This document shows positions 672 through 31,711 of a DNA stretch of 31,711 nucleotides, one piece after another (positions within the stretch are counted from its first letter, which is position 1; each line of letters starts with the position of its first letter). This DNA is from a virus. Below the pieces are notes generated by a model that was given only the letters and a program-made list of their open reading frames with translations, made no database searches and was not told the DNA's origin. The translations under genes and the position numbers were made by a program. Location: IMG/VR virus record IMGVR_UViG_3300022868_000068, positions 1 through 31,711 of that record; one strand, 5' to 3'.

Positions 672-699
672 TTTAAAACTTTAATAGAGGTGAAAAGAA

Positions 700-1221: not shown

Positions 1222-1238
1222 ATTAGTCTATTTTGGAT

Positions 1239-1260: not shown

Positions 1261-1287
1261 TCTTGAAAAGATTAAGAGGAGATTAAT

Positions 1288-1857: not shown

Positions 1858-2183
1858 GTTATAACAGTCTATTAATTTCAAGCTGTAAGGTTCAGACTAA
1901 GACTATCACTCATGATTCTGATACTAATCAGCAGATTGAATCTTGGGCGGACACAGCGACGCTAGCGTGTAGATTTAGTGATTTATCGGGTAGTGAAAAG
2001 ATAGTGGACAATATTAAATTTAAAGACGCTACACATAAATGCTATATCCTATATCGTAACATTTTATCTGAAACTCAGCGCATAGTTTTTAATAGTGAAA
2101 ATTACAGAATTTTAGGGGCTTGGAATATGGGAGGCAATCCTAACCGATATACCTGTATTTGGTTAGAGATAAATCGGCAATGA
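1854..2183 (+). CDS. Head-closure / head-tail adaptor protein
   Basis: A 109-residue protein that starts inside the stop codon of the connector gene. It has the size and layout of SPP1 gp16/HK97-type head-closure proteins (Phage_H_T_join family): an N-terminal 'KVQTKTITHDSDTNQQIESWAD' strand pair, a central 'CRFSDLSGSEKIVDNIKF' strand, and the 'CYILYRNILSETQRIVFNSENYRILG' segment that matches the usual 'dri.y.g..Y.I.gv' pattern. It would form the stopper ring that closes the head and joins the tail. Weak sequence conservation is normal in this family, so the call leans on position as well as pattern. Confidence 0.75.
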   Translation: MSYNSLLISSCKVQTKTITHDSDTNQQIESWADTATLACRFSDLSGSEKIVDNIKFKDATHKCYILYRNILSETQRIVFNSENYRILGAWNMGGNPNRYTCIWLEINRQ

Positions 2184-2638
2184 TTAAAGTTACCATAAAA
2201 GGAACTCCCTCTGTCAAACAGCTTGAGGCTAAATTTAAGAAATTCCCTGATAAGGTTTTAAGCAATGTAAGGGTTGCAATGGTTAAGACTGGCGGTGCTA
2301 TGGAGTTAGATTTAAAAAGGAAATTGAGCAAGGGCGGTAGAGGTGCAAAGGTTAAAGGGAAACGCCGTGTAACGCATTCTGGCATAGGACAGTATCCCTT
2401 TTTGCAATCAGGCGAACTCATGAATAGCATAGGCTCTAAGGTTTCAATAATTGGCAGTACCATTCTAATGATATTTGGTTCAATTCGTACAGGCGGGAAA
2501 CCAGTTGACTATGCCGAAGCTTTAGAAAAGAAATCGCCGCAGAAGGGCGGTAGACCGTGGTTGAGCAGAACGGTTAAGGATTGGTTGCTTAGAGTTAGGA
2601 AGTCTATAATTGAGGCGATTCACAGGACGGGGTTATGA
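2180..2638 (+). CDS. HK97 gp10-like tail completion/neck protein
   Basis: I place the start at the ATG at 2180, which overlaps the previous stop as ATGA; an upstream TTG at 2159 is in frame but has no reason to be used. The product is 152 residues, basic, with an N-terminal 'MIKVTIKGTPSVKQLEAKFKKFPDKV' helix and the motif 'GTGAMELDLKRKLSKGG'-like segment followed by 'THSGIGQYPFLQSGELMNSIGS' and 'YAEALEKKSPQKGGRPWLSRTVKD'. The 'sGeLmnSI' and 'rPwL...' elements are the signature of the HK97 gp10 family (tail completion, between closure protein and tail terminator). It sits in the expected gene order. Confidence 0.8.
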   Translation: MIKVTIKGTPSVKQLEAKFKKFPDKVLSNVRVAMVKTGGAMELDLKRKLSKGGRGAKVKGKRRVTHSGIGQYPFLQSGELMNSIGSKVSIIGSTILMIFGSIRTGGKPVDYAEALEKKSPQKGGRPWLSRTVKDWLLRVRKSIIEAIHRTGL

Positions 2639-3036
2639 TTGATTTAGATGTAATTGCATATTTAAAAGCAGATTCAGATTTAGATACTTTGCTAGGGTCA
2701 ACGGCAAGCAATGCTAAAATGTACCCGAATTATGTTCCTGAAAATGAAACATTGCCTTATATCGCCTATTATACCAATAGCGTTAGTTTTCAGGGGATAG
2801 TTGTAAATGAATGTAGTATGACTTTTGATTGCATGGCAAGCACTTATAAATCGGCAGGAATTATTGCCGATAGGTTAATTGTTTTGCTTTCAAAGCAAGA
2901 CCAAATAGAAATATCATCCGACACATTCCGAATCTTTTTTTGCGGTTCGTCTGGTGGTGCGGATGACTACCAAGATGAACTAGGAGTTTATAGTCGTTCT
3001 GTAAACTTCAATTTCAAATACAGGAGAAAAGAATAA
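2635..3036 (+). CDS. Tail terminator-like protein (DUF3168-type)
   Basis: A 133-residue protein coupled by ATGA to the gp10-like gene. It begins with 'IDLDVIAYLKADSDLDTLLG', then 'PNYVPENETLPYIAYYTNS', and a central 'CMASTYKSAGIIADRLIVLL' helix. This order (short N-terminal helix, a Y-P-x-x-x-P region with a 'lPyi.y' strand, and an 'a..ia..i..lL' helix) is typical of the DUF3168/tail terminator group that caps the tail tube. Expected length is 110-150 residues. The next gene starts at the final A of this stop codon (TAATG), so the two are translated together. Confidence 0.75.
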   Translation: MIDLDVIAYLKADSDLDTLLGSTASNAKMYPNYVPENETLPYIAYYTNSVSFQGIVVNECSMTFDCMASTYKSAGIIADRLIVLLSKQDQIEISSDTFRIFFCGSSGGADDYQDELGVYSRSVNFNFKYRRKE

Positions 3037-3911
3037 TGGGAACATTAAGTAAAATAGCATTTGGTTTAGTAGCCAGCAATAGCATTAAAGTCGGTGCGTA
3101 TGGAGCAGTGGAAGGCGATGCTGTTGCTTTGGGCTATTTATCAGGAAGTTTAGAAATTGAACACGGCGAGGAATCCAAAGATGTGCGGGTTGATCAGGTC
3201 ATAGGTATTATAAAAAAACATACCATTGATGAGACTATGAAGATTAGAATCACTGCGGCAGAAGTTAGCCTTGAAAATCTTGCCATAGCTTTTGGTTATC
3301 CTACCTCAGCAGTATCGGGTGGAAATACTTTGAATATCGGCGGAAAAACCTCTAACACTTATCGGACTGTTTATGTTAATGTAAACGGCGGTGATGGAAT
3401 TACCCGTAAATTTACTTTCCATAAATGCAAGCCGACTGGAGCAAGCACGCATAGTTATGGTCGTGAAAATGAGACTGTGGCTGATATGGAATTTGAGGTT
3501 ATAGTTGATACTACCAAAACTGCTGAACAGCAATTCGCAACAGTGGTGGATTCGGGAGCAGATACCACACCCCCAACTGTTGTGCTTACTACTCCTGCCG
3601 ACGGAGGCGAGGTAGCAAAGGACGCAAAGACAACGGTACTATGGACATTTACCGAAACCAATTTAATGGACGCAAATACCATTATTTACGGTGATACGGT
3701 ATTGATAATGAATACCACAACGCCGGCGTCAACGGTATTGGTTGCAGGCTCAATAGCTTACGATACATCTGCAAAGACTATCACATTCACACCTACTGAT
3801 AACTGGACAGGAGAAGATACATTACAGGCAATTGTAACTACTGGCGTTAAAGACCAAAACGGAAACGCTATGGCGGCAACTAAAATAGAACAGTTTGATG
3901 TTGCGGCGTAA
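3036..3911 (+). CDS. Major tail (tube) protein with C-terminal Ig-like domain
   Basis: A 291-residue protein with a good ribosome site (CAGGAGA) and a TAATG overlap with the upstream gene. Roughly residues 1-170 have the pattern of a siphovirus tail tube protein ('SGSLEIEHGEESKDVRVDQ' early, 'KFTFHKCKPTG' and 'ADMEFEVIVD' late). From about residue 175 a second domain starts with 'DTTPPTVVLTTPADGGEVAK' and contains 'ITFTPTDNWTGEDT' and 'GVKDQNGNAMA', the pattern of the Big_5 / SbsA-type bacterial Ig-like fold. Such domains decorate the outside of phage tails and may bind the cell surface loosely. One copy per tube subunit is expected, so the tail would be studded with them. Confidence 0.8.
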   Translation: MGTLSKIAFGLVASNSIKVGAYGAVEGDAVALGYLSGSLEIEHGEESKDVRVDQVIGIIKKHTIDETMKIRITAAEVSLENLAIAFGYPTSAVSGGNTLNIGGKTSNTYRTVYVNVNGGDGITRKFTFHKCKPTGASTHSYGRENETVADMEFEVIVDTTKTAEQQFATVVDSGADTTPPTVVLTTPADGGEVAKDAKTTVLWTFTETNLMDANTIIYGDTVLIMNTTTPASTVLVAGSIAYDTSAKTITFTPTDNWTGEDTLQAIVTTGVKDQNGNAMAATKIEQFDVAA

Positions 3912-3924
3912 TTATATATATAGG

Positions 3925-3961
3925 TATGGGGGGAGGTCTACTCCTTTAGCCTCCCCCTATA
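3925..3961 (+). terminator. Strong hairpin after the tail tube gene
   Basis: TATGGGGGGAGG (3925-3936) pairs with CCTCCCCCTATA (3950-3961), twelve pairs with one G-T wobble and a 13-base loop. It is followed by an A-run and the ribosome site of the next gene, not by T's, so it is more likely an mRNA end-stabiliser or attenuator after the highly expressed tube gene than a full intrinsic terminator. Confidence 0.5.
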
Positions 3962-3979
3962 AAAAAGGAGAATAATAAA

Positions 3980-4363
3980 ATGGAAGATACAATAAATGCT
4001 TTAGATGTTAAGAAATCAAAAGTAAAACTTAATGGCAAGGAATACGATGTAAAAAGTATTACGATAGGACAGCTTTTTAAATTAATGGGCTTGCTTAAAA
4101 ATAATATATCTGAAATTCAAGCAGAGATTAAACCTGAAACAAAAGACAGCGATTTGTTTTGGATAATCTTTGCGAAGGTTGAAGAGAAAGGATTGCTAAA
4201 AGAAGCATTGAGTATTATCCTTGGTAGCGATTTTTCAGATGATGATTTTATCTCAATACCAATAACCGATATTTCAGATTTAGCGACAACTCTTTTAGAG
4301 GTCAATGATTTTAAAAAGATATTCTCAAATTTTCAGATGGCAAAGTTGAATCTAAAAAAATAG
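3980..4363 (+). CDS. Tail assembly chaperone, short form (gpG-like)
   Basis: A 127-residue protein between the tail tube and tape measure genes, the fixed position of tail assembly chaperones. The N-terminus 'SKVKLNGKEYDVKSITIGQL' is a common chaperone beta-hairpin ('i.l.Gkey.l..lti.e...'). The ribosome site is AAAGGAG. The frame ends with codons CTA AAA AAA TAG, where the seven A's at 4354-4360 form a perfect A_AAA_AAA slippery site. The short form is expected to be made in excess over the frameshifted long form, and both act in tape measure-tube assembly without entering the virion. Sequence similarity is weak, so the call rests on position and the frameshift. Confidence 0.78.
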   Translation: MEDTINALDVKKSKVKLNGKEYDVKSITIGQLFKLMGLLKNNISEIQAEIKPETKDSDLFWIIFAKVEEKGLLKEALSIILGSDFSDDDFISIPITDISDLATTLLEVNDFKKIFSNFQMAKLNLKK

Positions 4364-4629
4364 ATAATGAGGTAGACCAGTTAGCTTTTGCCATAGGTAA
4401 GATAGCGTCTACATTTCCACAGTATTCTTTTGAGGATATACTTAACAAAACTCCTGATTGGCTGGAGTGGACAATCAAAAGGGTTATGGCTATTGAAAAG
4501 GAGAAAATGGATTTAATATCGGCTATCTTCGGCGGTGGCAAGAGTGAAAAGAAAGAGGCTACTGATTTAGAAATAAACAAGATGGGTATAAAAGTTATCA
4601 AGAAAGGAAGGCATTATGGCGGGCGATGA
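3980..4629 (+). CDS. Tail assembly chaperone, -1 frameshift long form (gpGT-like)
   Basis: Translation of 3980-4360 followed by a -1 slip continues as 4360-4629: after the two Lys codons the new frame reads 'IDNEVDQLAFAIGKIAST' and stops at TGA 4627-4629, 14 bases inside the tape measure gene. The fused product is about 216 residues (127 + 89). The downstream frame has no ATG, GTG or TTG start near its 5' end and no ribosome site, so it can only be reached by frameshifting. A +1 shift would hit TAA almost at once. The T-part includes a 'PDWLEWTIKRVMAIEKEKM' helix, and is expected to bind the tape measure protein, as lambda gpGT does. Confidence 0.8.
4354..4360 (+). promoter_or_regulatory. Programmed -1 ribosomal frameshift site
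   Basis: Heptamer A AAA AAA in the correct phase (X XXY YYZ), directly followed by the zero-frame TAG stop at 4361. It lies at the end of the chaperone gene, as in lambda and most siphoviruses. I see no strong stem right after it; the adjacent stop may itself add to pausing. Confidence 0.8.
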
Positions 4630-6859
4630 AAAACATTATGTAAATATAGTTTCAAACTTTGATAAAAAAGGAACTGATAATGCTGTCAATGCTTTTAAAA
4701 AAGTCAATGGCGGAACTGATAATGTTTCCAAAGGTTTAAAGAAAGTTAAAAAAGGGGCTGATACCGCCGCTAGGGGTTTAAAGGGTGTTGGTACTAAGGC
4801 TAACAGCACAACCAATGCCTTAAAATCAATGGCTAAAACTTTAATAGCTGGCTTTGGTATTTATCAAGCGATTAGAGGTATCCGTTCTTTAATTTCTGTT
4901 ACTGCTGATTTTGAAGAGCAAATGTCAAAGGTCGGGTCTTTGTTAGGCAATATGGAATCTCAACTATTGCCACAGTTTACCGAAGAGATAAGGCGGCTAT
5001 CGGTTGAAACAGGACAGGCTACTGGCGATTTGGCCGCAGGTTTATTTGATTTAGTATCAGCAGGCATGGATGCGTCAGAATCTTTAGACATAATAAGAGC
5101 CGCCTCAAAGTTAGCCGTCGGCGGTTTTACCTCTACAAACTTTGCTACTTCTGCATTGATAACGGTTTTACAAACTTTCAAGGGAGAATTAAAAGACGCG
5201 ACGGACGCCGCAGACTTTCTATTTGCCGTGCAGGAAGGCGGACGCTTAACTGTAGAGCAAGTTTCAAACGCAATAGGTATGTTTGCATCTACCGGCAAAT
5301 CAGCGGGCGTGGGGATAAATGATTTAGGGGCGGCATTTGCCACATTATCATTATCAGGCGAAGGCTCTCAGCGTTCGGCCACTCAATTACTTTCAATTCT
5401 AGTTTCATTGCAAAGAGACTCTGAAACAATGGCGGCAACAGCCAAAGAGCTTGGGCATGAAATAGATTTTAACAAACTTGCAACCGAAGGCTTAATTCCA
5501 TTTCTAGACCAATTCCTAGATTTAACTGGCAAAGAGAAAGCTCAAATATTTACTGAAAGCAGGGCTTTAAGAGGCATGAATACCCTGTTAGTAAACTCTA
5601 CCAAAGCAAAAGAAAAGTTAAATATTATTACCGATAGGACGGGGAAATCTACCGCCGCATACAAACGGAGACAAAAAGAGCTTAAACAACAATTGAAGGA
5701 AACTCTTGGAGTTATAAAAGATTTAGCAGTAGAAATTGGAAATTTCCTTTCACCTGCATTAAAAATAATATTGAGTATTTTAAAGGATTATTTAAGTGTT
5801 ATAAATAGTATTATGAAAAGTCTTGCTCCATTTCTTACAGTTTCTAAAGAAACAGAGGACGCTTTAAAAAGTCAAATGTCATTTTGGGAAAATCAATTAG
5901 ACCTTTTATATCAAACAGAAAAGATTTTTAAAACATTGCCGAATGGAACTGAGGTCTATGAAAATAGTGTTAAAAAATTAACCAAAAGCGAAGAGTTGCA
6001 AGCAGACGCTATTAGAAAAAACATAAGTGGGTTAAGAGATTTGATTAACCTAAGAGATACAGCGTCTAAACCCTCCCCGACTGGAAAAATAACAGTGACA
6101 GGTGTAAAACCAGCGGACAAAGAAGATAGATTACCACTTTTACCGCCATCCCTTTCATTGGGTTTTAATCTTCCTGACCCGACATTAGAAAGGGCTGAAT
6201 CTGTAAAAGCAATGCGGGAATCGTTTGATGAAGTTACAGAAGCCGCTAAAGAATCAGAAGGAAGTATATCAGCTTGGGGTTTATTTTTCAGAGACACCGC
6301 AGAGGGAGCAAGTAATTATGCTACTGAAAGTTTTAAATATTTCTTTGACACGGCAGGCAAAGGATTTTTAGATTTTGAGGAACTTGTTAATGGAGTTTGG
6401 AAATCAATATTGAAAGCTTTTTTAGATATGATTTCTAAGATGATGGCGAAGATGGTTATTTTTGGGATTATGGATATGTTTTTACCGGGCTCGGGAAGAG
6501 TTGGTAGTTTTTTAGCAGGTGGTGGCGGTGTTCCCTCCAAAGCAAAGGGGGGTTTCATTGACAAAGATATGCTTGCAAATTTACACGCTGGCGAATATGT
6601 ATTGCCAAAATCAGTAGTTGACAGTATCAAATCTAACAAAGCTCCTTCAACGCTACAGCCTAGTTTTGCAGGAGCAGGAGCAAACATATCAGTTAGTCCG
6701 AATATTAATATCACAGGCGGAATAAACAGCTCAATGGATGTTCAGAAAATAGCAGAGCAATTGGCGGAAGCTACAAAGCGTGGAACTACATGGGCGGTTG
6801 AGCAGGCAAAGGTAAGTTATAAAGTAGGTCAAAAAAGAAGTGATGAGGTATCATTATGA
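4616..6859 (+). CDS. Tail tape measure protein
   Basis: The longest tail gene after the tip protein, 747 residues, right after the chaperones. The N-terminal 70 residues are Lys-rich and helical with repeated 'GLKKVKKGADTAARGLKGVG'. Residues ~95-270 carry the conserved TP901-type tape measure domain ('FEEQMSKVGSLLGNM', 'LSVETGQATGDLAAGLFDLV', 'ALITVLQTFKGELKDATDAA'). The C-terminal part has a Gly-rich linker and 'AKGGFIDKDMLANLHAGEYV', a very common tape measure tail. The protein fixes tail length and enters the host during DNA injection; at about 1.5 angstrom per residue the tail would be near 110 nm (inference). The stop overlaps the next start (ATGA at 6856). Confidence 0.93.
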   Translation: MAGDEKHYVNIVSNFDKKGTDNAVNAFKKVNGGTDNVSKGLKKVKKGADTAARGLKGVGTKANSTTNALKSMAKTLIAGFGIYQAIRGIRSLISVTADFEEQMSKVGSLLGNMESQLLPQFTEEIRRLSVETGQATGDLAAGLFDLVSAGMDASESLDIIRAASKLAVGGFTSTNFATSALITVLQTFKGELKDATDAADFLFAVQEGGRLTVEQVSNAIGMFASTGKSAGVGINDLGAAFATLSLSGEGSQRSATQLLSILVSLQRDSETMAATAKELGHEIDFNKLATEGLIPFLDQFLDLTGKEKAQIFTESRALRGMNTLLVNSTKAKEKLNIITDRTGKSTAAYKRRQKELKQQLKETLGVIKDLAVEIGNFLSPALKIILSILKDYLSVINSIMKSLAPFLTVSKETEDALKSQMSFWENQLDLLYQTEKIFKTLPNGTEVYENSVKKLTKSEELQADAIRKNISGLRDLINLRDTASKPSPTGKITVTGVKPADKEDRLPLLPPSLSLGFNLPDPTLERAESVKAMRESFDEVTEAAKESEGSISAWGLFFRDTAEGASNYATESFKYFFDTAGKGFLDFEELVNGVWKSILKAFLDMISKMMAKMVIFGIMDMFLPGSGRVGSFLAGGGGVPSKAKGGFIDKDMLANLHAGEYVLPKSVVDSIKSNKAPSTLQPSFAGAGANISVSPNINITGGINSSMDVQKIAEQLAEATKRGTTWAVEQAKVSYKVGQKRSDEVSL

Positions 6860-7593
6860 GTTTACCGCAAGCAATGGAATTGTTAGGAGAGAATTGGATA
6901 AATGCGAATTGTAATATCGGAGTATCTGAAACTGATAAAGTATATATGTATGACCAAAAAAGAAGCACGCAATGGGTAAGCGAAAATTTAGCATTAACAA
7001 TGAATATACTATTCTATGACAATTTAGGTAATTCTGTTGAGAGAGATTTTAACAGGATTATATTAAATAATATGCAGACAGGTGCGAAGTCTATAGCTTT
7101 TAAATACCGCAAAGACGGTGCGTGGACTTACGCTGGCAAAATTCCAGTCGGCACAACAGACCTAGATTATGTGTTTTCATCGTCAGTTCCAATAATTGGC
7201 GACGGTGTACAATTACAGTTTTATGATTGCGACAATTTGCCTAGATTAGGCGAATTAAAAGTATGCAATAGTATTTTTGACATGGACGCTCTTACATCTT
7301 TTGAACGCAAGGATTATTCAAAACAGGGCAGTTATTATGTAAATTCAGGGAGCATAGTAAGGTGGAAAGAATTTGCAAAGAAATCAGGCATATTAAGTAT
7401 TGCCAATTTGAGCAAGACCGACAGGGATTTAGTTTACACCGCAATAGACGCTAATGATTTTTTTACTATTATTTTCTATGAGGATTATGACGCTAAAGAG
7501 ATTTACGAATATGCTTTAACCTCTATGCCGTCCGAAGTCTTTGACCGCAAGACACAGTTATTTTTAATGAGCTTGGATTTAACGGAAAGATAA
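6856..7593 (+). CDS. Distal tail protein (Dit-like)
   Basis: A 245-residue protein coupled by ATGA to the tape measure gene and followed with no spacing by the large tip protein. In siphoviruses this position is held by the Dit hub protein, whose hexamer joins the tube to the baseplate. The sequence has alternating beta strands with aromatic residues and 'SFERKDYSKQGSYYVNSGSI' in the middle, and no signal peptide or enzymatic motif. I cannot point to a sharp family signature, so the name follows from order, size and beta-rich character. Confidence 0.62.
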   Translation: MSLPQAMELLGENWINANCNIGVSETDKVYMYDQKRSTQWVSENLALTMNILFYDNLGNSVERDFNRIILNNMQTGAKSIAFKYRKDGAWTYAGKIPVGTTDLDYVFSSSVPIIGDGVQLQFYDCDNLPRLGELKVCNSIFDMDALTSFERKDYSKQGSYYVNSGSIVRWKEFAKKSGILSIANLSKTDRDLVYTAIDANDFFTIIFYEDYDAKEIYEYALTSMPSEVFDRKTQLFLMSLDLTER

Positions 7594-13396: not shown

Positions 13397-13411
13397 AGAT
13401 TATGTTATACT
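13381..13411 (+). promoter_or_regulatory. Candidate extended -10 promoter
   Basis: TTGTAA (13381-13386), 19 bases, then TG-T-TATACT (-10 at 13406-13411). The TG at 13403-13404 makes an extended -10, which tolerates the weak -35 and long spacer. Transcription would start near 13418, just before two stable hairpins. It overlaps the end of the endolysin gene. Confidence 0.5.
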
Positions 13412-13417
13412 AGATTT

Positions 13418-13515
13418 AACACACCCGCCACACCTCTTAACAATGTGCAATTTGGGCGGGTAGGGCAGGCGGTAACGCTTGCCAAAATTTGAGGTTAAAT
13501 TGAAAGGAGAAAATA
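13418..13515 (+). ncRNA. Structured 5' leader RNA (two stacked hairpins)
   Basis: Stem 1: ACCCGCC (13423-13429) with GGCGGGT (13455-13461), seven perfect pairs, 25-base loop. Two bases later stem 2: GGCAGGCG (13464-13471) with CGCTTGCC (13476-13483), eight pairs with one wobble, closed by a GUAA (GNRA) tetraloop. The loop of stem 1 has ACCTC (13432-13436), which could pair with GAGGT (13491-13495) downstream. The structure ends just before the ribosome site of a 34-residue ORF. A short GTG ORF (13445-13492) also runs through it. It could be a cis regulator or a small RNA. Confidence 0.42.
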
Positions 13516-13620
13516 ATGGCAACTGTTAAACCTGATTTACTGGATTCAGAAAAATTAGATGATAGAATTCGTGCTTTCTTTGAATCTCTTGAAATGCAAA
13601 TTGAAATTATTAGATGGTAA
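13516..13620 (+). CDS. Small 34-residue protein, unknown
   Basis: ATG at 13516 preceded by an excellent ribosome site (GAAAGGAGA, eight bases away). The product starts MATVKPDLLDSEKLDDRIRA and ends in an amphipathic helix 'FFESLEMQIEIIRW'. It is acidic, with no membrane segment. It lies behind the structured leader and ahead of the second copy of the TTTGAGGTT motif. The strong ribosome site supports real translation; its role is unknown. Confidence 0.55.
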   Translation: MATVKPDLLDSEKLDDRIRAFFESLEMQIEIIRW

Positions 13621-13680
13621 TAAATAAATTGCTTAAAAAAATGTATCTATCCGCTAAGATTTGAGGTTTAAAATTAAAGC

Positions 13681-13707
13681 GAACTGTTCCAAAAATTGGA
13701 ATAGTTC
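13681..13707 (+). promoter_or_regulatory. Hairpin before the 13723 gene
   Basis: GAACTGTTCC (13681-13690) pairs with GGAATAGTTC (13698-13707), ten pairs with one wobble, seven-base loop AAAAATT. The AGGAG ribosome site of the next gene begins four bases later and there is no T-tract, so it may modulate ribosome loading instead of ending transcription. Confidence 0.5.
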
Positions 13708-13722
13708 AGAAGGAGATGCGTG

Positions 13723-13929
13723 ATGGAATTACCAAGACTACCAGAAAATAAAGATGAGGACTTGGTGGAAAAGGCACTGAGGAAAATTACAGAAGTAAGC
13801 CAATATCCAGTAAAAGTTATTGAATCATTTTGGAAATTGCTTGAATTTGCAAGACTCACATTGAGTCAAAGTACAGAACTAGGGGATCCTTGGGTCTGTA
13901 CACACTTTAAGGATGTACACGGAACGTGA
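13723..13929 (+). CDS. Small acidic helical protein, unknown
   Basis: A 68-residue protein. I use the ATG at 13723, seven bases after AGGAG; a GTG three bases upstream is too close. It starts MELPRLPENKDEDLVEKALR and continues with a long helix 'KITEVSQYPVKVIESFWKLL'. There are no Cys clusters apart from one C and no membrane segment. It is followed 13 bases later by the PP-loop gene, so the two likely form a pair. It could be a partner of that enzyme, but there is no family evidence. Confidence 0.6.
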   Translation: MELPRLPENKDEDLVEKALRKITEVSQYPVKVIESFWKLLEFARLTLSQSTELGDPWVCTHFKDVHGT

Positions 13930-15137: not shown

Positions 15138-15556
15138 TTGAACTTTTAAAAGGGTATGGAACAGGGATAGCAATAGGCTTTGCTTTAGCTTACGCAATTA
15201 AAGTAATTCCTGATTTGGTTTCAAAATATACACAGAATTATATTCAGACCCTTCTAAATAAAGGCGGTGTTTATGAGGATGTGCTTTTACTAACGCACAT
15301 TTGGTACGCGGAGCATTTAATCGGCAAGGGTGCTGGCAAGGATAAATTTAAAATCGTAGCCAATAAACTGATTGCAAGATTACCGGTATTTGTAAAAATA
15401 TTTATCACTAAAAATAATCCTAAAATCATAGAGTTAATAAATAAAACTGTTGCTAAGTTTTCAGTGGTTTTAAAATCAAATAGCGGAACGACTACTTTAA
15501 TCGCTATGCTAACCTCAATCAGAAATAAAGAAGCTGAGGAGAAAAAAAATAAATAA
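15134..15556 (+). CDS. Holin-like membrane protein (LLH-type candidate)
   Basis: A 140-residue protein coupled by ATGA to the exported protein. Residues ~5-28 form a membrane segment (LKGYGTGIAIGFALAYAIKV), followed by amphipathic helices 'LLLTHIWYAEHLIGKGAGKD' and 'KFKIVANKLIARLP'. The 'AE..iG.g.gkdKf..v...L' pattern recalls the phage LLH superfamily holins. The C-terminus is Lys/Glu-rich, as holins often are. It is the last gene before the strong terminator, closing the late transcript. A tail-region membrane role other than holin cannot be excluded. Confidence 0.58.
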   Translation: MIELLKGYGTGIAIGFALAYAIKVIPDLVSKYTQNYIQTLLNKGGVYEDVLLLTHIWYAEHLIGKGAGKDKFKIVANKLIARLPVFVKIFITKNNPKIIELINKTVAKFSVVLKSNSGTTTLIAMLTSIRNKEAEEKKNK

Positions 15557-15580
15557 TTTATCTCAGTCATTACTCCTCCA

Positions 15581-15609
15581 AGCCCTCCTTAACTGGGGGG
15601 CTTTTTTTT
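15581..15609 (+). terminator. Intrinsic terminator of the late transcript
   Basis: AGCCCTCC (15581-15588), loop TTAACT, GGGGGGCT (15595-15602), then eight T's to 15609. Eight base pairs with one wobble and a clean T-tract make a textbook rho-independent terminator. It separates the structural/lysis genes from the early promoter. Confidence 0.93.
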
Positions 15610-15687
15610 ATCTAGTTCTGAAAGCGTCCCGTTAGGGGACACTAAAAGCGTAAAGGGATTTTAGACTCTTGTCAAGGAGTATTTACC

Positions 15688-15721
15688 TTTAGCTAAACAT
15701 AGGTATTGACATTTAGCTAAA
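15688..15721 (+). promoter_or_regulatory. Two palindromic operator sites
   Basis: TTTAGCTAAA, a perfect 10-base palindrome, occurs at 15688-15697 and again at 15712-15721, both followed by CA (TTTAGCTAAACA), with centres 24 bases apart. The second copy fills most of the spacer between the -35 and -10 of the early promoter and the first lies upstream. A dimeric repressor binding here would shut the promoter. Candidate binders in the window are the HTH protein at 17278 and the ribbon-helix-helix protein at 17629. Confidence 0.72.
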
Positions 15722-15734
15722 CAGGGGTTATAAT
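15706..15734 (+). promoter_or_regulatory. Early promoter, full sigma70 consensus
   Basis: TTGACA (15706-15711), 17-base spacer, TATAAT (15729-15734). Both hexamers and the spacing are perfect consensus. The start of transcription would be near 15741, 36 bases before the first early ATG at 15777. This is the strongest promoter in the window. Confidence 0.92.
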
Positions 15735-15776
15735 ATATAAGGAAGTAAGTTAATTATCAAAAGCGAGGACAAAAAA

Positions 15777-15920
15777 ATGGAAAATAAAAAACACATAAAC
15801 ATGAATCCAAAAAACTATGCAGAGTATTGCAAAATGGAAGATTCGCTAAATGGCGGTTCAGCCGAAGAAATAGAAGAACGAGAGCAGGAAGACTTTGCCG
15901 AAGAGATTGAGCAAGCGTAA
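15777..15920 (+). CDS. Acidic 47-residue early protein, copy A
   Basis: The first gene after the early promoter. The leader carries ATCAAAAGCGAGGACA, with GAGGA as the ribosome site. The protein starts MENKKHINMNPKNYAEYCKM and ends with a strongly acidic segment 'SAEEIEEREQEDFAEEIEQA' (mostly Glu). A second, nearly identical copy lies at 16303. Small acidic proteins made first in infection are often inhibitors of host enzymes or DNA mimics, so host takeover or anti-defence is a fair guess, but there is no family match I can name. One Cys, no membrane segment. Confidence 0.75.
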   Translation: MENKKHINMNPKNYAEYCKMEDSLNGGSAEEIEEREQEDFAEEIEQA

Positions 15921-15928
15921 AATCAAAA

Positions 15929-15960
15929 ACCGCTTCGGCGGTCTACGGTTCAAAACCGTA
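15929..15960 (+). promoter_or_regulatory. Double hairpin, copy A (second copy 16455-16486)
   Basis: ACCGC-TTCG-GCGGT (15929-15942) is a UUCG-capped stem, followed directly by TACGGT-TCAAA-ACCGTA (15944-15960). Neither is followed by T's. The same pair is conserved without change at 16455-16486. They sit between the 47-residue gene and the variable gene and could set relative expression or protect mRNA. Confidence 0.7.
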
Positions 15961-15996
15961 CTGAAGAGGATTAAATTATCAAAAGAGGATGACAAA

Positions 15997-16233
15997 ATGA
16001 AAACTGAAAAAGAAACATTAAAAATACTAGACTGGGCAAAGGCACAAAAAGGATATTTTCAAAGTGATGAAGATAAAGCGTATCAGCGGGGGTATATTTG
16101 TGCTCTAGAATTTGCTTTAGGCATACCTAGTAAAAATGACTATATTCTGAAACTTAAACAAGATCGGGAACAGGAAGAATTTAAAAAACAGGAGGATTTA
16201 AAAATTAAAAGAGAAAATGAAAAATCTAATTAG
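15997..16233 (+). CDS. Variable cassette gene A, unknown
   Basis: I start at the ATG at 15997, behind ATCAAAAGAGGATGAC; the frame is open further upstream but only through the constant segment. The 78-residue protein begins MKTEKETLKILDWAKAQKGY, has 'KAYQRGYICALEFALGIPSK' in the middle, and a charged Lys/Glu helix at the end. Its last residues 'NEKSN' are encoded in the 3' constant segment, so only the core is cassette-specific. No family recognised. The layout suggests an exchangeable early accessory gene. Confidence 0.68.
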   Translation: MKTEKETLKILDWAKAQKGYFQSDEDKAYQRGYICALEFALGIPSKNDYILKLKQDREQEEFKKQEDLKIKRENEKSN

Positions 16234-16302
16234 CATCCAGTCTACATCCTCTTAATCGGGGGATGTGGGAAGGATACTAAATCAAAAAAGAGGATAAACG
16301 AA

Positions 16303-16446
16303 ATGAAAACCAAAAAATACATAAACATGAATCCAAAGAACTATGCAGAGTATTGCAAAATGGAAAATTCGCTAAATGGCGGTTCAGCCGAAGAAATAGA
16401 AGAACGAGAGCAGGAAGACTTTGCCGAAGAGATTGAGCAGGCATAA
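16303..16446 (+). CDS. Acidic 47-residue early protein, copy B
   Basis: Second copy of the early acidic protein, same length, starting MKTKKYINMNPKNYAEYCKM. It differs from copy A in the first residues (KTKKY for ENKKH) and at one residue later (Asn for Asp after the second Met-Glu). The acidic C-terminal half is identical. Ribosome site AGAGGA in the leader. Since the remaining base differences are mostly silent, both copies appear to be kept intact rather than decaying. See copy A for possible role. Confidence 0.75.
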   Translation: MKTKKYINMNPKNYAEYCKMENSLNGGSAEEIEEREQEDFAEEIEQA

Positions 16447-16524
16447 AATCAAAAACCGCTTCGGCGGTCTACGGTTCAAAACCGTACTGAAGAGGATTAA
16501 ATTATCAAAAGAGGAGTGGTAATC

Positions 16525-16728
16525 ATGGCATTTACAAAAAAGCAAATAGAAACAAGACTTTATAAAATATGTTCTCATTTATTAAACAGGGCTTCTAGGT
16601 CTTGTGTTCAATATAAGAAATATAAAAAAGTTGATGGCGGTGGATACTGGTTCGGCAATATGTGTGGTTTTAGTGAATCACATCATCAACTATGGAAATT
16701 ATTGCAAGACATAGAAAAATCTAATTAG
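16525..16728 (+). CDS. Variable cassette gene B, unknown
   Basis: I start at the ATG at 16525 (GAGGAGTGGTAATC upstream); a GTG at 16516 is too close to the ribosome site. The 67-residue protein is basic and begins MAFTKKQIETRLYKICSHLL, with 'SCVQYKKYKKVDGGGYWFGN' next and three Cys in total. The last codons come from the 3' constant segment. It has no similarity to the gene in the same slot of cassette A. A small DNA- or protein-binding early protein is plausible; no family is recognised. Confidence 0.65.
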   Translation: MAFTKKQIETRLYKICSHLLNRASRSCVQYKKYKKVDGGGYWFGNMCGFSESHHQLWKLLQDIEKSN

Positions 16729-16797
16729 CATCCAGTCTACATCCTCTTAATCGGGGGATGTGGGAAGGATACTAAAATCAAAAGCGAGGACATGAAA

Positions 16798-16977
16798 ATG
16801 AAATCAATAAATAACAGGGCAATATTTATTTTAGAAAACTCTAACGACGGCGATTCGCTAACTCCAAAAGAATTATGGATAACAGAAAATGCCATTAACG
16901 GATTACTAAACAACAATGGTATAAATACTTTTCATAGACTTTATGATAAGTATAAAAAACATAAACAAGGAGATTAA
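16798..16977 (+). CDS. Small early protein after the cassettes, unknown
   Basis: I prefer the ATG at 16798, seven bases after GAGGA, to the one at 16792, which is one base after it. The 59-residue protein starts MKSINNRAIFILENSNDGDS and ends in a Lys-rich helix ('LYDKYKKHKQGD'). Its leader, ATCAAAAGCGAGGACA, is the same as the leader of cassette A, so this gene seems to sit in the slot of a third, degenerate unit. Its function is unknown. Confidence 0.6.
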   Translation: MKSINNRAIFILENSNDGDSLTPKELWITENAINGLLNNNGINTFHRLYDKYKKHKQGD

Positions 16978-17034
16978 ATGCTAATAATATATATTTTGAT
17001 ATGCGTAATAGTTGCAAAAATTCTTGGGTACTGA
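16978..17034 (+). CDS. 18-residue membrane peptide
   Basis: ATG directly after the previous stop, with ribosome site AAGGAGA. The peptide MLIIYILICVIVAKILGY is entirely hydrophobic apart from one Lys and would span a membrane. The next gene has its own ribosome site overlapping the end of this one. Small hydrophobic peptides occur in phage early regions, but at this length coding could be chance. Confidence 0.4.
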   Translation: MLIIYILICVIVAKILGY

Positions 17035-17043
17035 GGAGAGGAA

Positions 17044-17274
17044 ATGATAAAATTAGCTAAAGAAGAAGTCCAAAGTATGGCTAAAAGTTTAGATAACGAA
17101 GATGTTTTATTAGATGTCTACCATTTCCCACATGAAATTATTTTTAGAAAAACACACAGAAATAACAATCTTGGGTTTGATGTTCGGGAATGGAAATGGA
17201 AAGGTCTAAAATCTTTGGCAAAAAAGAACTTGGATATATTAAATAAACTGATAGCTAAAGTGAAAAGGAGATAA
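17044..17274 (+). CDS. Small basic early protein, unknown
   Basis: A 76-residue protein with ribosome site GAGGAGAGGAA. It begins MIKLAKEEVQSMAKSLDNED, followed by 'VYHFPHEIIFRKTHRNN' and a basic C-terminal helix 'KNLDILNKLIAKVKRR'. There is no membrane segment and no Cys. It sits three bases before the HTH protein, so the two are probably cotranslated. No family recognised. Confidence 0.62.
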   Translation: MIKLAKEEVQSMAKSLDNEDVLLDVYHFPHEIIFRKTHRNNNLGFDVREWKWKGLKSLAKKNLDILNKLIAKVKRR

Positions 17275-17277
17275 CTA

Positions 17278-17454
17278 ATGAAAGATACAGTAACATTAAA
17301 AGAGTTCATAGAGCATTGCGGGTCACAAGAGCAGGCAGGGATAACACTTGGATATAGAAAGAATACAGTTTATTATTGGGTCAAAGGAACTTTTAAACCT
17401 AGTCTACAGGCTCAAAAGAGATTAAAAAAACATGGAATTGAGAGGTGGTGGTAA
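17278..17454 (+). CDS. HTH DNA-binding protein, Cro/YdaS-like
   Basis: A 58-residue protein starting three bases after the previous stop (GGAGATAACTA upstream). It has 'LKEFIEHCGSQEQAGITLGY' and 'RKNTVYYWVKGTFKPSLQAQ', a compact helix-turn-helix: a first helix, Gln-Ala-Gly for the turn entry, then a recognition helix with 'NTVYYWV'. This is the pattern of Cro and YdaS-type phage regulators. It is a good candidate for binding the TTTAGCTAAA operators at the early promoter 1.6 kb upstream, giving feedback control (inference). Confidence 0.72.
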   Translation: MKDTVTLKEFIEHCGSQEQAGITLGYRKNTVYYWVKGTFKPSLQAQKRLKKHGIERWW

Positions 17455-17628: not shown

Positions 17629-17946
17629 ATGGGAAAAATACTTGAATTAAATAAAAAAATTGATGATATGAATAAAATGATTATTGATGTGAATGATAAA
17701 ATTATTGCCCTAAATAGGAAACCCAAAAAATCAAAGACTGTAAACAATACAGCTAAAGCGGGACTACATAAAGGCTATACAAGGGCTACATTTATATTGA
17801 GCGAGGATCTGCTAAATCAATTAAAAGATATTGCATATACCGAGCGAGCAACAATAAAAGAAATTGCTAATACAGCATTAAAGCAGTATGCGGACAATTT
17901 CAAAAGCAAGGATATATTAAAACGCAAAAAAATAAATTTGATTTAG
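17629..17946 (+). CDS. Ribbon-helix-helix regulator with coiled coil
   Basis: A 105-residue protein with an ideal ribosome site (AAAGGAG). Residues 1-30 form a heptad-like coiled coil ('LNKKIDDMNKMIIDVNDKII'), then a basic linker, then residues ~50-90 'TRATFILSEDLLNQLKDIAY' followed by 'TERATIKEIANTALKQYADN', which fits the ribbon-helix-helix fold (beta strand, helix A, turn, helix B) of CopG/ParG-type DNA binders. It may repress or partition DNA; as a dimeric binder of short palindromes it is an alternative candidate for the TTTAGCTAAA operators. Confidence 0.7.
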   Translation: MGKILELNKKIDDMNKMIIDVNDKIIALNRKPKKSKTVNNTAKAGLHKGYTRATFILSEDLLNQLKDIAYTERATIKEIANTALKQYADNFKSKDILKRKKINLI

Positions 17947-18225: not shown

Positions 18226-18960
18226 ATGGCAATAGAACTACCGACGGAAAATAGCAAACCACCAAAGGCAAATGAAGTGCCAAAAAATTACAGTATGGTA
18301 TTGTTTGGACAACCCAAAGTAGGCAAAACAACGCTTGCTACGGAATTTCCAAATAGTATTTTGCTTGAGTGTGAAAATGGAGGGGCAGAATACATAGCCT
18401 GCAAAAAAATTGACATTCAAAACCTTACAGAATTAAGAGAATCCCATAAACTCTTAATGTCAAATGAAACTTTTGAAACTGTAATTATTGATAGCATAGA
18501 TAAGGTCGCCGAATGGACAGAGGATGAGATTTGTAAAAGTTTAAAACTATCCTCAATGTTTGTTGGGAAATTCGGCTCTCAATGGGGCGAGTATAAATTA
18601 AAGATACTCAAAATAATCAATGCTTTTTTAATGCTAAATAAAAAGGTTATCTTTATAGGGCATTTAAAAAAAGCTGAAACTAACGGAAATGGAGGGATAA
18701 TTAATCCAAAGACAATAAACATTTATGGTCAAACCGCAATGCAGATTATCTCAACGGTTAGTAATGTGGGTTATATGTTTGCAAAAGAAGGAACTGATAA
18801 AAAAATCAAAAGGTACTTATCTTTTAAAGCGGGTGAAATGGTGGAATCAGGTAGCAGATGCCCTGCAATTTCAGATAAGGTTATTGAATTGCCACTTGGC
18901 AAAGGATATAAAGCATTTGAAAAGTGCTTTACAGAATACGGAAAAAAGGAGGGTAAATAA
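18226..18960 (+). CDS. Sak4-like recombination ATPase (AAA_24)
   Basis: A 244-residue protein with ribosome site AAAAGGAGGAG. The Walker A box 'FGQPKVGKTTLATEF' (Lys34) and Walker B 'TVIIDSIDK' (Asp89) are clear, and the 'SILLECENGGAEY' and 'KKVIFIGHLKKAE' strands fit the AAA_24 / Sak4 RecA-like core family of phage single-strand annealing ATPases. Its partner, a DUF669 protein, starts in its stop codon (TAATG). Together they would promote annealing and recombination of phage DNA, working with single-strand binding protein. No separate Erf or Redbeta-type gene is present. Confidence 0.85.
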   Translation: MAIELPTENSKPPKANEVPKNYSMVLFGQPKVGKTTLATEFPNSILLECENGGAEYIACKKIDIQNLTELRESHKLLMSNETFETVIIDSIDKVAEWTEDEICKSLKLSSMFVGKFGSQWGEYKLKILKIINAFLMLNKKVIFIGHLKKAETNGNGGIINPKTINIYGQTAMQIISTVSNVGYMFAKEGTDKKIKRYLSFKAGEMVESGSRCPAISDKVIELPLGKGYKAFEKCFTEYGKKEGK

Positions 18961-20218: not shown

Positions 20219-20607
20219 ACATATTCACAGACCTAGAAACCAGTAAGAAACTTGCTAAATATATTAAGCCGAAGGAAGACCATAAATTCTTTTGGTCAAA
20301 AGGAGACGGATTTGATTGCTTTAAAATGGTAATAGTTTCAAAAGTTGAAAACCATTTGTGTCCGTTAAATCGCCCTTCAATGATTCCATATACGGAAAAA
20401 CTTGTTGCTACTTACACCCTTGAGCAGATTCTTGAGGAGTTGAATAAAAAAACATGGGTACATCATATTGGTATTCATTTTAAGGAAATAGGAATACTGC
20501 CATATAAAATGGAAGGAGAATTAAAAGGTCAAACATTTAAATCCAAAACCCTCCTGCAATCAGCGGTAGATGCTCTTATTTGGGTGTGTGAGAATAAACA
20601 TGAATAA
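20215..20607 (+). CDS. Phage protein of unknown function
   Basis: A 130-residue protein starting in the stop codon of the winged-helix gene. It begins MNIFTDLETSKKLAKYIKPK and has 'SMIPYTEKLVATYTLEQILE', a pattern often seen in small phage proteins of unknown role that accompany replication genes ('...ya.ptl.ell..L'). The C-terminus has 'KTLLQSAVDALIWVCENKHE'. There is no membrane or metal motif. It overlaps the start of the first methyltransferase by eight bases. Confidence 0.65.
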   Translation: MNIFTDLETSKKLAKYIKPKEDHKFFWSKGDGFDCFKMVIVSKVENHLCPLNRPSMIPYTEKLVATYTLEQILEELNKKTWVHHIGIHFKEIGILPYKMEGELKGQTFKSKTLLQSAVDALIWVCENKHE

Positions 20608-21553
20608 TCTAATAGGCAAGGTAACGCAAGGGGATTGTTTGGATATTCTTAAAACTATGCCGGATAATAGCCTTGATTGCGTTATTACCTCGCCGCCTTA
20701 TTTTCAGTTGAGAGATTACAATTGGACTGGTCAATGGGGATTAGAGAAGACATATCAGGAATATTTAGAACATTTATGGTCTTTGATGGATGAGATTTAT
20801 CGTACATTAAAAGATACCGGCACAGTTTGGTTTAATTTAGGGGACACATACTCTACTTTAAGCGGTGGCATGGCTAGTGGTGATATGGGAATAGGCAAAG
20901 AGGAATCAATAGGAAATAGTAAACTTAAACAAACAAAGGATAATAATATCCCCAGTAAATGTCTAATGCTAATCCCTCACCGCTTTGCGATAGGATGTAT
21001 TGATAGAGGATGGATAGTCCGCAATGACATTATTTGGGCGAAGAGAAATGGTATGCCTGAATCGGTAACTGATAGATTTACAAAAAAGCATGAGTATATA
21101 TTTTTCATGGCAAAGAAAGATAAGTATTATTTTGACTTGAATAGTGTTAGGGATAATCCTTTAACAGAAAACATATTAAGAAATCGTGCAAAAGAGAGTT
21201 ATGGAATCGGTAGTGGTTCTTTTGGTGATGGAAATAGCATGACTAATTCTAATAATCCTTTAGGCAAAAATCCCGGGTCCATATCTGATTTTTGGGATAT
21301 ACCGACAAAGCCCTCAAGCGAGAAACACTATGCTACATTCAATTTTAATCTAATTGATAAACCGATATTGGCCGGTTGCCCTAAAGGTGGCATAGTGTGC
21401 GATATGTTTGCAGGAACAGGGACTACATTGGTAAGGGCAGAGCAGTTAGGCAGGAAGGTAATAGGTATTGAAGGTAATGCGGATTATTGCAAAAGAGCAA
21501 ATGAACTTTTAAAGAAAGAACAAGACCAATTGAAATTACCTATGGAGAATTAA
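20600..21553 (+). CDS. DNA methyltransferase 1 (beta class, SPPY type)
   Basis: I start at the ATG at 20600, inside the previous gene's end, because its product begins MNNLIGKVTQGDCLDILKTM, the same as the start of methyltransferase 2; an in-frame ATG at 20570 adds unlike residues. The 317-residue enzyme has 'VITSPPYFQLRDYNWTGQWG' (catalytic SPPY at 31-34) early and 'DMFAGTGTTLVRAEQLGRKV' (SAM-binding FAGTG at 270-274) late, the order of class beta N4-cytosine/N6-adenine methylases. SPPY is most often seen with N4-cytosine. No restriction enzyme is nearby, so it would protect phage DNA. Confidence 0.9.
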   Translation: MNNLIGKVTQGDCLDILKTMPDNSLDCVITSPPYFQLRDYNWTGQWGLEKTYQEYLEHLWSLMDEIYRTLKDTGTVWFNLGDTYSTLSGGMASGDMGIGKEESIGNSKLKQTKDNNIPSKCLMLIPHRFAIGCIDRGWIVRNDIIWAKRNGMPESVTDRFTKKHEYIFFMAKKDKYYFDLNSVRDNPLTENILRNRAKESYGIGSGSFGDGNSMTNSNNPLGKNPGSISDFWDIPTKPSSEKHYATFNFNLIDKPILAGCPKGGIVCDMFAGTGTTLVRAEQLGRKVIGIEGNADYCKRANELLKKEQDQLKLPMEN

Positions 21554-22293
21554 TGAATAACTTAATAGGCAAGGTTACACAGGGGGATTGTTTAGAGGTT
21601 ATGCAAGATATAGAGGATAAGTCTATAGACGCAATTATTTCAGACCCCCCTTATGGATCTACCGCTTGTAAGTGGGATACTATCATTCCATTTGAACCAC
21701 TATGGAAACAGTACAAGAGGATTATTAAAGATAATGGTGCTATAGTGTTGACTGCGAGCCAGCCATTTACTAGTAAACTTATAATGAGCAATATCGGAAT
21801 GTTTAAATATGAATGGATTTGGGATAAGAAAAAAGGGGGTAACATAATGAATCTGAAATCTCAACCGTATAAAGTACACGAGAATATATTAGTTTTCTCA
21901 AAAGAAAAACATAATTATTATCCAATAATGATAGACCAAAAAGAAAGAACTGGAAAGACTTATTCTAAAGGCGAGGCGAATGGTATCATCAATTATGGAG
22001 ATATAAGAATATATAATAAAAAATACCCTAAAAGCATATTAGAAAAAAGTAATGCTAATCAAAAAGATAAAATCCACCCCACACAAAAACCAGTAGCCTT
22101 ATTTGAGTATCTAATCAAAACATATACAAATGAGGGTGATTTGGTCTTGGATAATTGTATTGGCTCAGGTACTACCGCTGTTGCTTGCGAAAGACTAGGT
22201 AGACGCTGGATAGGAATAGAAAAGGATTTATCTTATTGTACTATAGCAAGGGAAAGGATTAAGGCAGAACAAGACCAGTTGAAATTGTTTTAG
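21553..22293 (+). CDS. DNA methyltransferase 2 (beta class, DPPY type)
   Basis: A 246-residue enzyme that starts at the last base of the stop of methyltransferase 1 (TAATG). It has 'IISDPPYGSTACKWDTIIPF' (DPPY at 31-34) and 'LDNCIGSGTTAVACERLGRR' (CIGSG at 202-206), again class beta; DPPY favours N6-adenine. Its first 14 residues and its end 'EQDQLKLF' match those of its neighbour, while the middle is quite different, including the target-recognition part. So the two arose by duplication or share exchangeable ends, and probably methylate different sites. Ends just before a new promoter. Confidence 0.9.
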   Translation: MNNLIGKVTQGDCLEVMQDIEDKSIDAIISDPPYGSTACKWDTIIPFEPLWKQYKRIIKDNGAIVLTASQPFTSKLIMSNIGMFKYEWIWDKKKGGNIMNLKSQPYKVHENILVFSKEKHNYYPIMIDQKERTGKTYSKGEANGIINYGDIRIYNKKYPKSILEKSNANQKDKIHPTQKPVALFEYLIKTYTNEGDLVLDNCIGSGTTAVACERLGRRWIGIEKDLSYCTIARERIKAEQDQLKLF

Positions 22294-29158: not shown

Positions 29159-30351
29159 GTGAATTAATATTTACCCGTCTTTTTTACTGTAATCTAAAAT
29201 ATAAGAATCCAATTATTGTCCATGTTGGCGGAACTAGGTCTAGCAAATCATACAGCGTGGCTCAAACTATCTGCTATAAGTTTTTAAATGAATCTAAAAA
29301 AGATTTTCTAGTGGTACGCAAAACTTTCCCTGCTTTAAAGCGTACCGCTTATAAAGATATTATTGATGTGTTAAAAGAATGGAATGTTTATAATCCCTAC
29401 AATCATAATTTATCAGACCATACTATAAAGAATAAAGCTAACGGTAGTACTATAAATTTTGTTTCCATTGATGACCCTGAAAAGATTAAGTCTACTGGCT
29501 ATAATTATATATGGATTGAAGAGGCTATAGAATTTTCCATTGATGACTTTTGGATTTTACGCATGAGATTATCAGGCAAGAAATTAGAGCACGAAAAAAA
29601 TCAGATATTCATTACACTAAATCCCAGCGATGTTTACTCCTGGGTAAATACTAAGCTGAAAGATAATCCCGACGCTAAATTTATTTATTCAAATTTTGTA
29701 GACAATCCAACGCTTGATAAAGATTATACCGATATGCTCAGAAATTCAAAAAATGAGGATATGGATTATTATAGAGTTTATGCTTTGGGAGAATGGACTT
29801 CGCCACAGTCTTTGATTTACAATAACTACACGGTAATAAAAGATATTGACTTTCCTACAGAATTTGATGATACGATTTACGGATTAGACTTTGGATATAA
29901 TAACCCGACTGCTTTAATCAAGGTAGGAATTAAAGACCAAAAGAATTTATATATATCAGAGGAAATTTACCAAAGTCTATTGACTAATGCAGATTTAACT
30001 GCAAAAATTAAAACAGAAGTAAATGATATTGGTCATACAAGAATTTATGCGGACAGCGCAGAGCCGGACAGAATCTTTGAATTAAACAATGCCGATTTAA
30101 ATGTCTTCAATGCAGACAAAGGCAAAGGCTCAGTAGGAAATGGAATTGATTTTTTAAAGCGATGTAAGCTGTACATTAATGAAAACGCCGTTAGCGTGAT
30201 AAAAGAATTACAAGCTTACAAGTGGAAAAAAGATAGGGCGGGGAATGTTTTAGATGAGCCTGCAAAATTTAATGACCATGCGATGGACGCCATACGGTAT
30301 GCGATTTATACGCACAATTTAAACAGTGGAATAGGGATAAGCGTTTTATGA
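29155..30351 (+). CDS. Terminase large subunit
   Basis: A 398-residue packaging motor protein, coupled by ATGA to the small subunit. ATPase: Walker A-like 'HVGGTRSSKSYSVAQ' (residues 24-38), Walker B 'NYIWIEEAIEF' (Glu122/Glu123), 'IFITLNPSD' as the coupling motif. Nuclease: 'IYGLDFGYNNPTALIKVG' (Asp245), 'RIYADSAEPDRI' (Asp300) and 'FNDHAMDAIRYAI' (Asp374, Asp378). The layout and length agree with the Terminase_3 / SPP1 gp2-like family, often headful packagers. That would fit a circularly permuted genome, in line with this contig's cut point. Confidence 0.95.
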   Translation: MSELIFTRLFYCNLKYKNPIIVHVGGTRSSKSYSVAQTICYKFLNESKKDFLVVRKTFPALKRTAYKDIIDVLKEWNVYNPYNHNLSDHTIKNKANGSTINFVSIDDPEKIKSTGYNYIWIEEAIEFSIDDFWILRMRLSGKKLEHEKNQIFITLNPSDVYSWVNTKLKDNPDAKFIYSNFVDNPTLDKDYTDMLRNSKNEDMDYYRVYALGEWTSPQSLIYNNYTVIKDIDFPTEFDDTIYGLDFGYNNPTALIKVGIKDQKNLYISEEIYQSLLTNADLTAKIKTEVNDIGHTRIYADSAEPDRIFELNNADLNVFNADKGKGSVGNGIDFLKRCKLYINENAVSVIKELQAYKWKKDRAGNVLDEPAKFNDHAMDAIRYAIYTHNLNSGIGISVL

Positions 30352-31711
30352 AAAATCTATTACCAACTTTCAGCAAACTATTTTCAAAAGAAAACAAACT
30401 TTCAAATGCTCCTAGTAAATTATCTTTCTTTGCTCCAACAATAAGCGATTTATTTGGAAAGCAAAATACAAGACTGCCAGACCCAGCTAATCATCAATAT
30501 GAAAGATATGTAAATGCTTATGCAGACCAAGCGTGGGTCTATGCTTGCGTATCTGCAATTGTAAACACACTATCCGATTTAGAGTTTGTGATAAGAAATG
30601 AGAAGGGTGTTATTGTAGAAAATCATCCTGCTTTGAATTTGCTATATACTCCGAATTCTTTTATGACCATACGGCAATTATTTAATTATCTTTCAGGTGG
30701 ACTTGAACTTACTGGAAACGCTTATCTATTAAAAGATAATTTGACAGCAGGAAGACCGACTACACTATTCCCATTAATGCCTCAGTATATAAAAATAAAA
30801 CCTAGCGGAGACCCTGAGAATCCCATCAAAGAATTTCAATATAATATTAATGGCACAAAAAAACATTATCTATCCGAAGATGTAATCCACTTTAAATTTT
30901 ATAATGCCGCTGATTTTTACTATGGTCTTGCTCCTCTTGCGGCGGCGAGAACTCCTGCTGATACTTTGCAGGCTTCTGAGAAATACAACGAAGCATTTTT
31001 TAATAATTCAGCACGCCCCGACGGCATATTAAGCTCTGATAACCGTGTGGATGAGCCTAGTAAAAATAGAATGCTCAAGATGTGGAATGATAAATTTAGA
31101 GGTGAAGAGAAAGCACATAAAACTGTAGTGTTAAGCGACGGCGTTAAATGGCAACAGATGGGTATGAGCCAAAAGGATATGGAGTATATTCAAGGGCAGA
31201 AATTATCAAGGGAAACCGTGTGTGCTATTTTCGGCGTACCGCCTGCGATGGTGGGTCTATTTGAATTTGCTCCTCAGTTTAATACCAAAGAACAGCAAAA
31301 GATTTTTTACCAAAACACCATAATCCCGAAGGCAAAAGTCATAGCCGAAACATTAACTGAATTCTTATTGCCAGCTTTTGACAATACTAAAAAGCATTAT
31401 TTCAGTATTGACCTTTCTAATATTAATGTTTTAAGAGAAGACATAACCGAGAAAGCGCCTAGTGCTACTCTGTATCAGAAAATGGGATTTACCCGCAATG
31501 AGGTTACCGTCGCACTGGGTTTACCGTTTCCTATTACCAAAGATGGCGACATAAGACATGAGCCTGATTATATTATTACCTCGCCTACTGGAATATTAAA
31601 CGCTCCGAAGGCAGATAGTAAACTATTCACAATGGGTTCTAAGCGTTTGTCTAGGGTGCAAGTAACCCAATATATGAATGAGCGGGACGCTCTGCTTGCT
31701 ATTCATGGCAG
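30348..31711 (+). CDS. Portal protein (3' truncated)
   Basis: ATG at 30348 overlaps the large terminase stop (ATGA). The frame stays open to the end of the window, giving at least 454 residues. 'AYADQAWVYACVSAIVNTLS', 'ENHPALNLLYTPNSFMTIRQ', 'ELTGNAYLLKDN', 'FYNAADFYYGLAPLAAAR' and 'SRETVCAIFGVPPAMVGLFE' are typical of HK97-type portal proteins, including the Gly-Asn-Ala-Tyr and the 'IfGVPP.mvg' motifs. It forms the dodecameric ring at the capsid vertex. HK97-type portals are often near 400-450 residues, so this one is about complete or has a C-terminal extension. Confidence 0.95.
   Translation, partial: MKNLLPTFSKLFSKENKLSNAPSKLSFFAPTISDLFGKQNTRLPDPANHQYERYVNAYADQAWVYACVSAIVNTLSDLEFVIRNEKGVIVENHPALNLLYTPNSFMTIRQLFNYLSGGLELTGNAYLLKDNLTAGRPTTLFPLMPQYIKIKPSGDPENPIKEFQYNINGTKKHYLSEDVIHFKFYNAADFYYGLAPLAAARTPADTLQASEKYNEAFFNNSARPDGILSSDNRVDEPSKNRMLKMWNDKFRGEEKAHKTVVLSDGVKWQQMGMSQKDMEYIQGQKLSRETVCAIFGVPPAMVGLFEFAPQFNTKEQQKIFYQNTIIPKAKVIAETLTEFLLPAFDNTKKHYFSIDLSNINVLREDITEKAPSATLYQKMGFTRNEVTVALGLPFPITKDGDIRHEPDYIITSPTGILNAPKADSKLFTMGSKRLSRVQVTQYMNERDALLAIHG

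Follow-up and report, generated by a model that had tools for sequence, protein, structure and literature searches.

The DNA analysed here, referred to as the window, is a 31,711-nt stretch of sequence from an uncultured phage that carries two head-to-tail units directly 3' of an early promoter (unit 1, 15756-16281; unit 2, 16281-16776; Table 1). A first-pass annotation of the window had described these units as sharing a 197-bp segment with four differences and an identical 63-bp segment, and its coordinates are exact to the base: 15793-15989 in unit 1 corresponds to 16319-16515 in unit 2 (197 bp, four differences), and 16219-16281 corresponds to 16714-16776 (63 bp, none). The longest exact run common to both units is 73 nt, and outside them the 31.7-kb window contains no exact repeats of at least 25 nt. 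Between the shared segments lie two small genes, core A and core B, which the annotation had called unrelated; they exhibit neither protein nor DNA similarity beyond chance, while both have a GC content of 0.30. It had also noted that the constant 3' segment supplies the last codons of both cores, and each indeed ends in GAA AAA TCT AAT TAG (EKSN-stop), which is part of the constant 63 bp.

Upstream of the units, the palindrome TTTAGCTAAA occurs in two exact copies, the only ones in the window. The copies are 24 nt apart, with the second located just within the promoter spacer, adjoining the -35 box. Because two such palindromes are found at the promoter, a repressor is suggested, and the early promoter is probably shut off by a dimeric protein bound at these sites. 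Candidates for this role, based on their predicted families, are a 58-aa helix-turn-helix (HTH) protein and a 105-aa Arc-like protein encoded in the same operon.

Table 1. Features of the early region and of the downstream genes discussed in the text.
Feature	Position	Strand	Remarks
Palindromes TTTAGCTAAA	15688-15697, 15712-15721	+	both perfect; probable operators
Early promoter	15706-15734	+	TTGACA-17-TATAAT, 12/12 match, sigma-70-type
Leader 1	15757-15769	+	TCAAAAGCGAGGA
Gene a, copy 1	15777-15920	+	47 aa, acidic C-terminal half
Structured spacer hp1 + leader 2, copy 1	15918-15989	+	identical to copy 2
Core A	15997-16233	+	78 aa, helical, no family
Constant 63 bp, copy 1	16219-16281	+	EKSN-stop codons and hairpin hp2, z -4.8
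Leader 3	16282-16294	+	TCAAAAAAGAGGA
Gene a, copy 2	16303-16446	+	47 aa
Structured spacer hp1 + leader 4, copy 2	16444-16515	+	identical to copy 1
Core B	16525-16728	+	67 aa, no family
Constant 63 bp, copy 2	16714-16776	+	EKSN-stop codons and hairpin hp2, z -4.4
Leader 5	16778-16790	+	equals leader 1
61-aa gene behind leader 5	16792-16977	+	59 aa if from 16798
58-aa HTH protein	17278-17454	+	phrog_409, 1.5e-4; candidate regulator of early promoter
105-aa Arc-like protein	17629-17946	+	phrog_3180, 9e-4; second candidate regulator
Sak4-like single-strand annealing protein (AAA_24)	18226-18960	+	PHROG 124, E 3e-35

Conserved elements of the units

The shared 197-bp segment consists of gene a without its first codons, followed by a 72-nt spacer in which two predicted hairpins are combined with the following gene's leader. 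All eight coding differences between the units are located in gene a. The shared 197 bp contain few changes, four in all, but three of these are synonymous, which suggests that the 47-aa frame is a genuine gene under selection; a search of phage records with it gave one match, at E 8, as expected by chance. Of the eight differences in gene a, four are concentrated in its initial 18 nt (P 0.01), the preceding leaders differ as well, and identity jumps at ~15793. To judge from the sequence, this jump looks like the edge of a conversion or crossover tract, although selection on the strength of the start site could give the same pattern.

The spacer hairpins, termed hp1, are moderately structured, with z-scores of about -2.1 to -2.4 that fall to about -0.8 when longer flanks are included. 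A tRNA or tRNA-like origin, considered for the T-arm-like element TACGG-TTCAAAA-CCGTA, was rejected when ARAGORN returned no match. The hairpin of the constant 63 bp, hp2, has a stem of ~20 bp with one internal loop and a folding energy of about -23 kcal/mol in 51 nt, which places it in the top 0.07% of the window's 51-nt windows. An intrinsic terminator was ruled out for hp2, which is not followed by a T run, and no Rfam element reached its gathering score in 15500-17100. Both hp1 and hp2 are folding predictions, and their copies, being invariant, offer no covariation signal. The hairpins between cistrons probably serve to process or stabilize the mRNA. Elsewhere in the window, the strongest local hairpin (-24.6 kcal/mol, 3913-3963) is situated directly 3' of a 291-aa gene and likewise has no T run, and a 516-nt region (13397-13912) upstream of a PAPS-reductase-like gene has a strong hairpin at 13852 and, as its sole ORF, a doubtful one of 69 aa.

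The pattern TCAAAA(G/A)..GAGGA is found exactly five times in the window, in each case just 5' of one of five successive genes, in agreement with the earlier report of a leader recurring before each of them; ordinary GGAG-type sites precede the remaining genes of the window. The first four of these five genes are each followed by a structured spacer of 69-78 nt, whereas most genes in the window are closer together. The 16-mer ATCAAAAGCGAGGACA at 15756 recurs at 16777, before the 61-aa gene, where the first-pass annotation had proposed a decayed third slot. The 16-nt repeat is present as described, but no trace of a unit extends past those 16 bases.

Across the 135 nt of structured segments the two copies are identical, while the coding part of gene a differs at 8 of 141 (Fisher P 0.007). 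In view of this imbalance, the RNA elements would appear to be under stronger selection or to have been homogenized more recently. The constant flanks claimed earlier exist, but as flanks they are incompletely described: a complete 47-aa ORF accounts for most of the 197-bp part, and structured RNA occurs in both parts. They are more than recombination flanks, and a paralogous gene, ribosome-binding leaders, and RNA hairpins provide a simpler cause of their conservation.

Origin of the tandem units

Because two near-identical units enclose unrelated cores, the sequences imply at least one replacement (or insertion) of a core between conserved ends. The preferred explanation, to which we assign a probability of about one half, is tandem duplication of an early module of two genes, after which one core was replaced by recombination at the repeated elements. 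The ancestral module would have comprised the 47-aa gene, the structured spacer, a small accessory gene, and the terminal hairpin, with its tandem duplication suggested by the two copies. The accessory gene of one copy would then have been exchanged through crossovers in hp1 and its leader on one side and in the last codons and hp2 on the other, the identical 72- and 63-nt elements serving as homology arms. Retention of the constant elements may reflect their role in the mRNA, in which each gene would receive a strong ribosome-binding leader and the hairpins probably function in processing or stability, with transcription apparently driven by the single perfect promoter seen in the sequence.

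The replacement may have been promoted by the phage's Sak4-like annealing protein, whose gene lies 2 kb downstream of the units; the phage also encodes an SSB-like protein. Sak4 of phage HK620 is described as annealing single strands (PMC5928155), and phage annealing recombinases are described as acting on diverged sequences and feeding phage mosaicism (PMC2327257, PMC5499656).

A different history, which we consider unlikely, is that the repeated elements themselves moved, in the manner of PeSL-like regulatory cassettes (see below), so that gene a with hp1, and hp2, were copied beside two genes that already differed, and no swap took place. In favour of such movement, conservation within the units is highest in the noncoding elements, and similar leaders precede all five genes, including the one outside the units. 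Both cores are nevertheless bracketed by the elements in one common order and orientation, and each core's last four codons belong to the copied sequence; duplication plus replacement is the simpler account of this arrangement.

We think it quite improbable that no gene was imported and that, after perfect tandem duplication of one unit, one core diverged rapidly while selection or gene conversion kept the flanks alike. The cores are alike in their low GC (0.30), length, and end codons, but they are wholly different in protein and DNA while the adjoining sequence is 96-100% identical. Their predicted secondary structures also differ, a comparison tempered by the poor model of core B. AlphaFold2 run without an alignment modelled core A as three helices (pLDDT 88), whereas its model of core B was too poor for use (pLDDT 54). 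A fold search with core A returned only weak matches, to small uncharacterized phage proteins. Neither core had a family above chance in Pfam, PHROGs, NCBIfam, or PADLOC or a relative in 50,697 phage records, and searches of plasmids and known defence families gave no match. Early regions are where phages gain host-takeover and anti-defence genes, and the position of the cores at the head of the early operon suggests such roles for them.

One relative of the window was found, IMGVR_UViG_3300023257_000134 (G001), a 22.4-kb IMG/VR contig of the same phage from another metagenome. It is 99.9% identical to the window over 13.9 kb and identical over 15600-17100 (1501 bp). The possibility that two strains were collapsed or falsely joined during assembly is very remote: repeats could mislead an assembler, but the 1501 bp recur unchanged across both units in this independent contig, and the longest exact common run, 73 nt, is shorter than usual short reads. 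Before 20617 the window and G001 show 13 differences, nine of them clustered within 76 bp (7497-7572) at the end of a tail-region gene; the cluster resembles a small recombination tract.

Scans of viral and genome contigs with the hairpins, the leader, and gene a yielded no contig with the early region beyond G001, and the Sak4-like protein, used as a tracer, led only to G001 among viral contigs and to none among genomes. Five contigs with pattern matches were rejected as relatives: in L006 the leader match lies within an ORF, in L012-L015 the hp2 stem is absent, and none of them matches the window. The sole relative carries the same two cores and thus shows no exchange; none of the scanned collections yielded an alternative core between these flanks.

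These results bear on the landing platform, with exchange at fixed flanks, that the first-pass annotation had envisaged. The implied replacement, the Sak4-like gene, and a parallel at a methyltransferase locus are in its favour, while the identical cores of G001 are not. At 20570-22293, two tandem DNA methyltransferases have common starts (MNNLIGKVTQGDCL) and ends (EQDQLKL) and different bodies, a second instance of constant ends with a swapped core in this phage. G001 matches the first of these genes up to 20616 and from 20617 continues into a third, different methyltransferase body, the start of which resembles the window's second methyltransferase; the contig stops before the other edge. 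Because G001 departs from the window at this point, gene bodies behind conserved starts do differ within the same phage population, as read from these two contigs. A true platform, whose slots are replaced often and for which many alternative cores circulate in the population, would fit the two discordant cores in one genome, the recombinase gene, and this gene-body difference at another locus. It is likewise quite improbable, given that the collections scanned hold no alternative core and that the only relative is identical at the units. Duplication followed by a single replacement remains the preferred reading of the two units.

Relation to known early cassettes

The nearest known kinds are the PeSL cassettes and the SAS/ESAS elements; any likeness in how the locus works is partial at most, and it belongs to neither. 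In T4-like phages, PeSL (promoter early stem-loop) cassettes place repeated stem-loops between small early genes and are proposed to allow gene shuffling by recombination (PMC4503421, citing Arbiol 2010, Comeau 2014). A stem-loop lies in the intergenic repeat here too (hp2, z -4.8 and -4.4). Each PeSL element has an early promoter, in contrast to the present repeat, which holds only a 9/12 site; promoter-like sites in the region as a whole number 14 against 15.0 expected. The repeats here also include leaders and a paralogous gene, and they occupy one locus in a genome of ~34 kb that is not T4-like.

In Cluster K mycobacteriophages, a conserved start-associated sequence (SAS) with a Shine-Dalgarno core precedes several genes, about half of the copies have an inverted repeat just upstream, the genes behind vary between phages, and RNA pairing was judged unlikely (PMC3203893). 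The five leaders described here (5/5) similarly place a conserved Shine-Dalgarno-containing motif right before start codons, although the sequence is another one: the consensus GGGATAGGAGCCC had one match, with three mismatches, which is below chance expectation. The present locus further differs in its extended, predicted RNA-like hairpins and in the duplication of whole units. In phage T7, early promoters are followed by small cistrons separated by RNase III sites, which are hairpins of ~20 bp containing an internal loop. Similar predicted hairpins separate small early cistrons here, but the genome is not T7-like, and units with a repeated gene are absent from the T7 layout.

The layout is real and modestly unusual; it is one example so far, with no swap observed. 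We regard as doubtful the broader idea that the early region is a row of exchangeable slots in which leaders and hairpins act at once as expression signals and homology arms. If it were true, any incoming small gene would be expressed correctly. Recombination arms that are also expression signals would account for the exchange of small unknown genes and their immediate expression. The unit ends could then be used to catalogue such genes in metagenomes.

In a further contig, L010, the end of the window (30162-31708) is linked with its start (1-6349) by 2028 bp that the window lacks. Because of this link, the genome is taken to be circular or permuted, with a length of about 33.7 kb.
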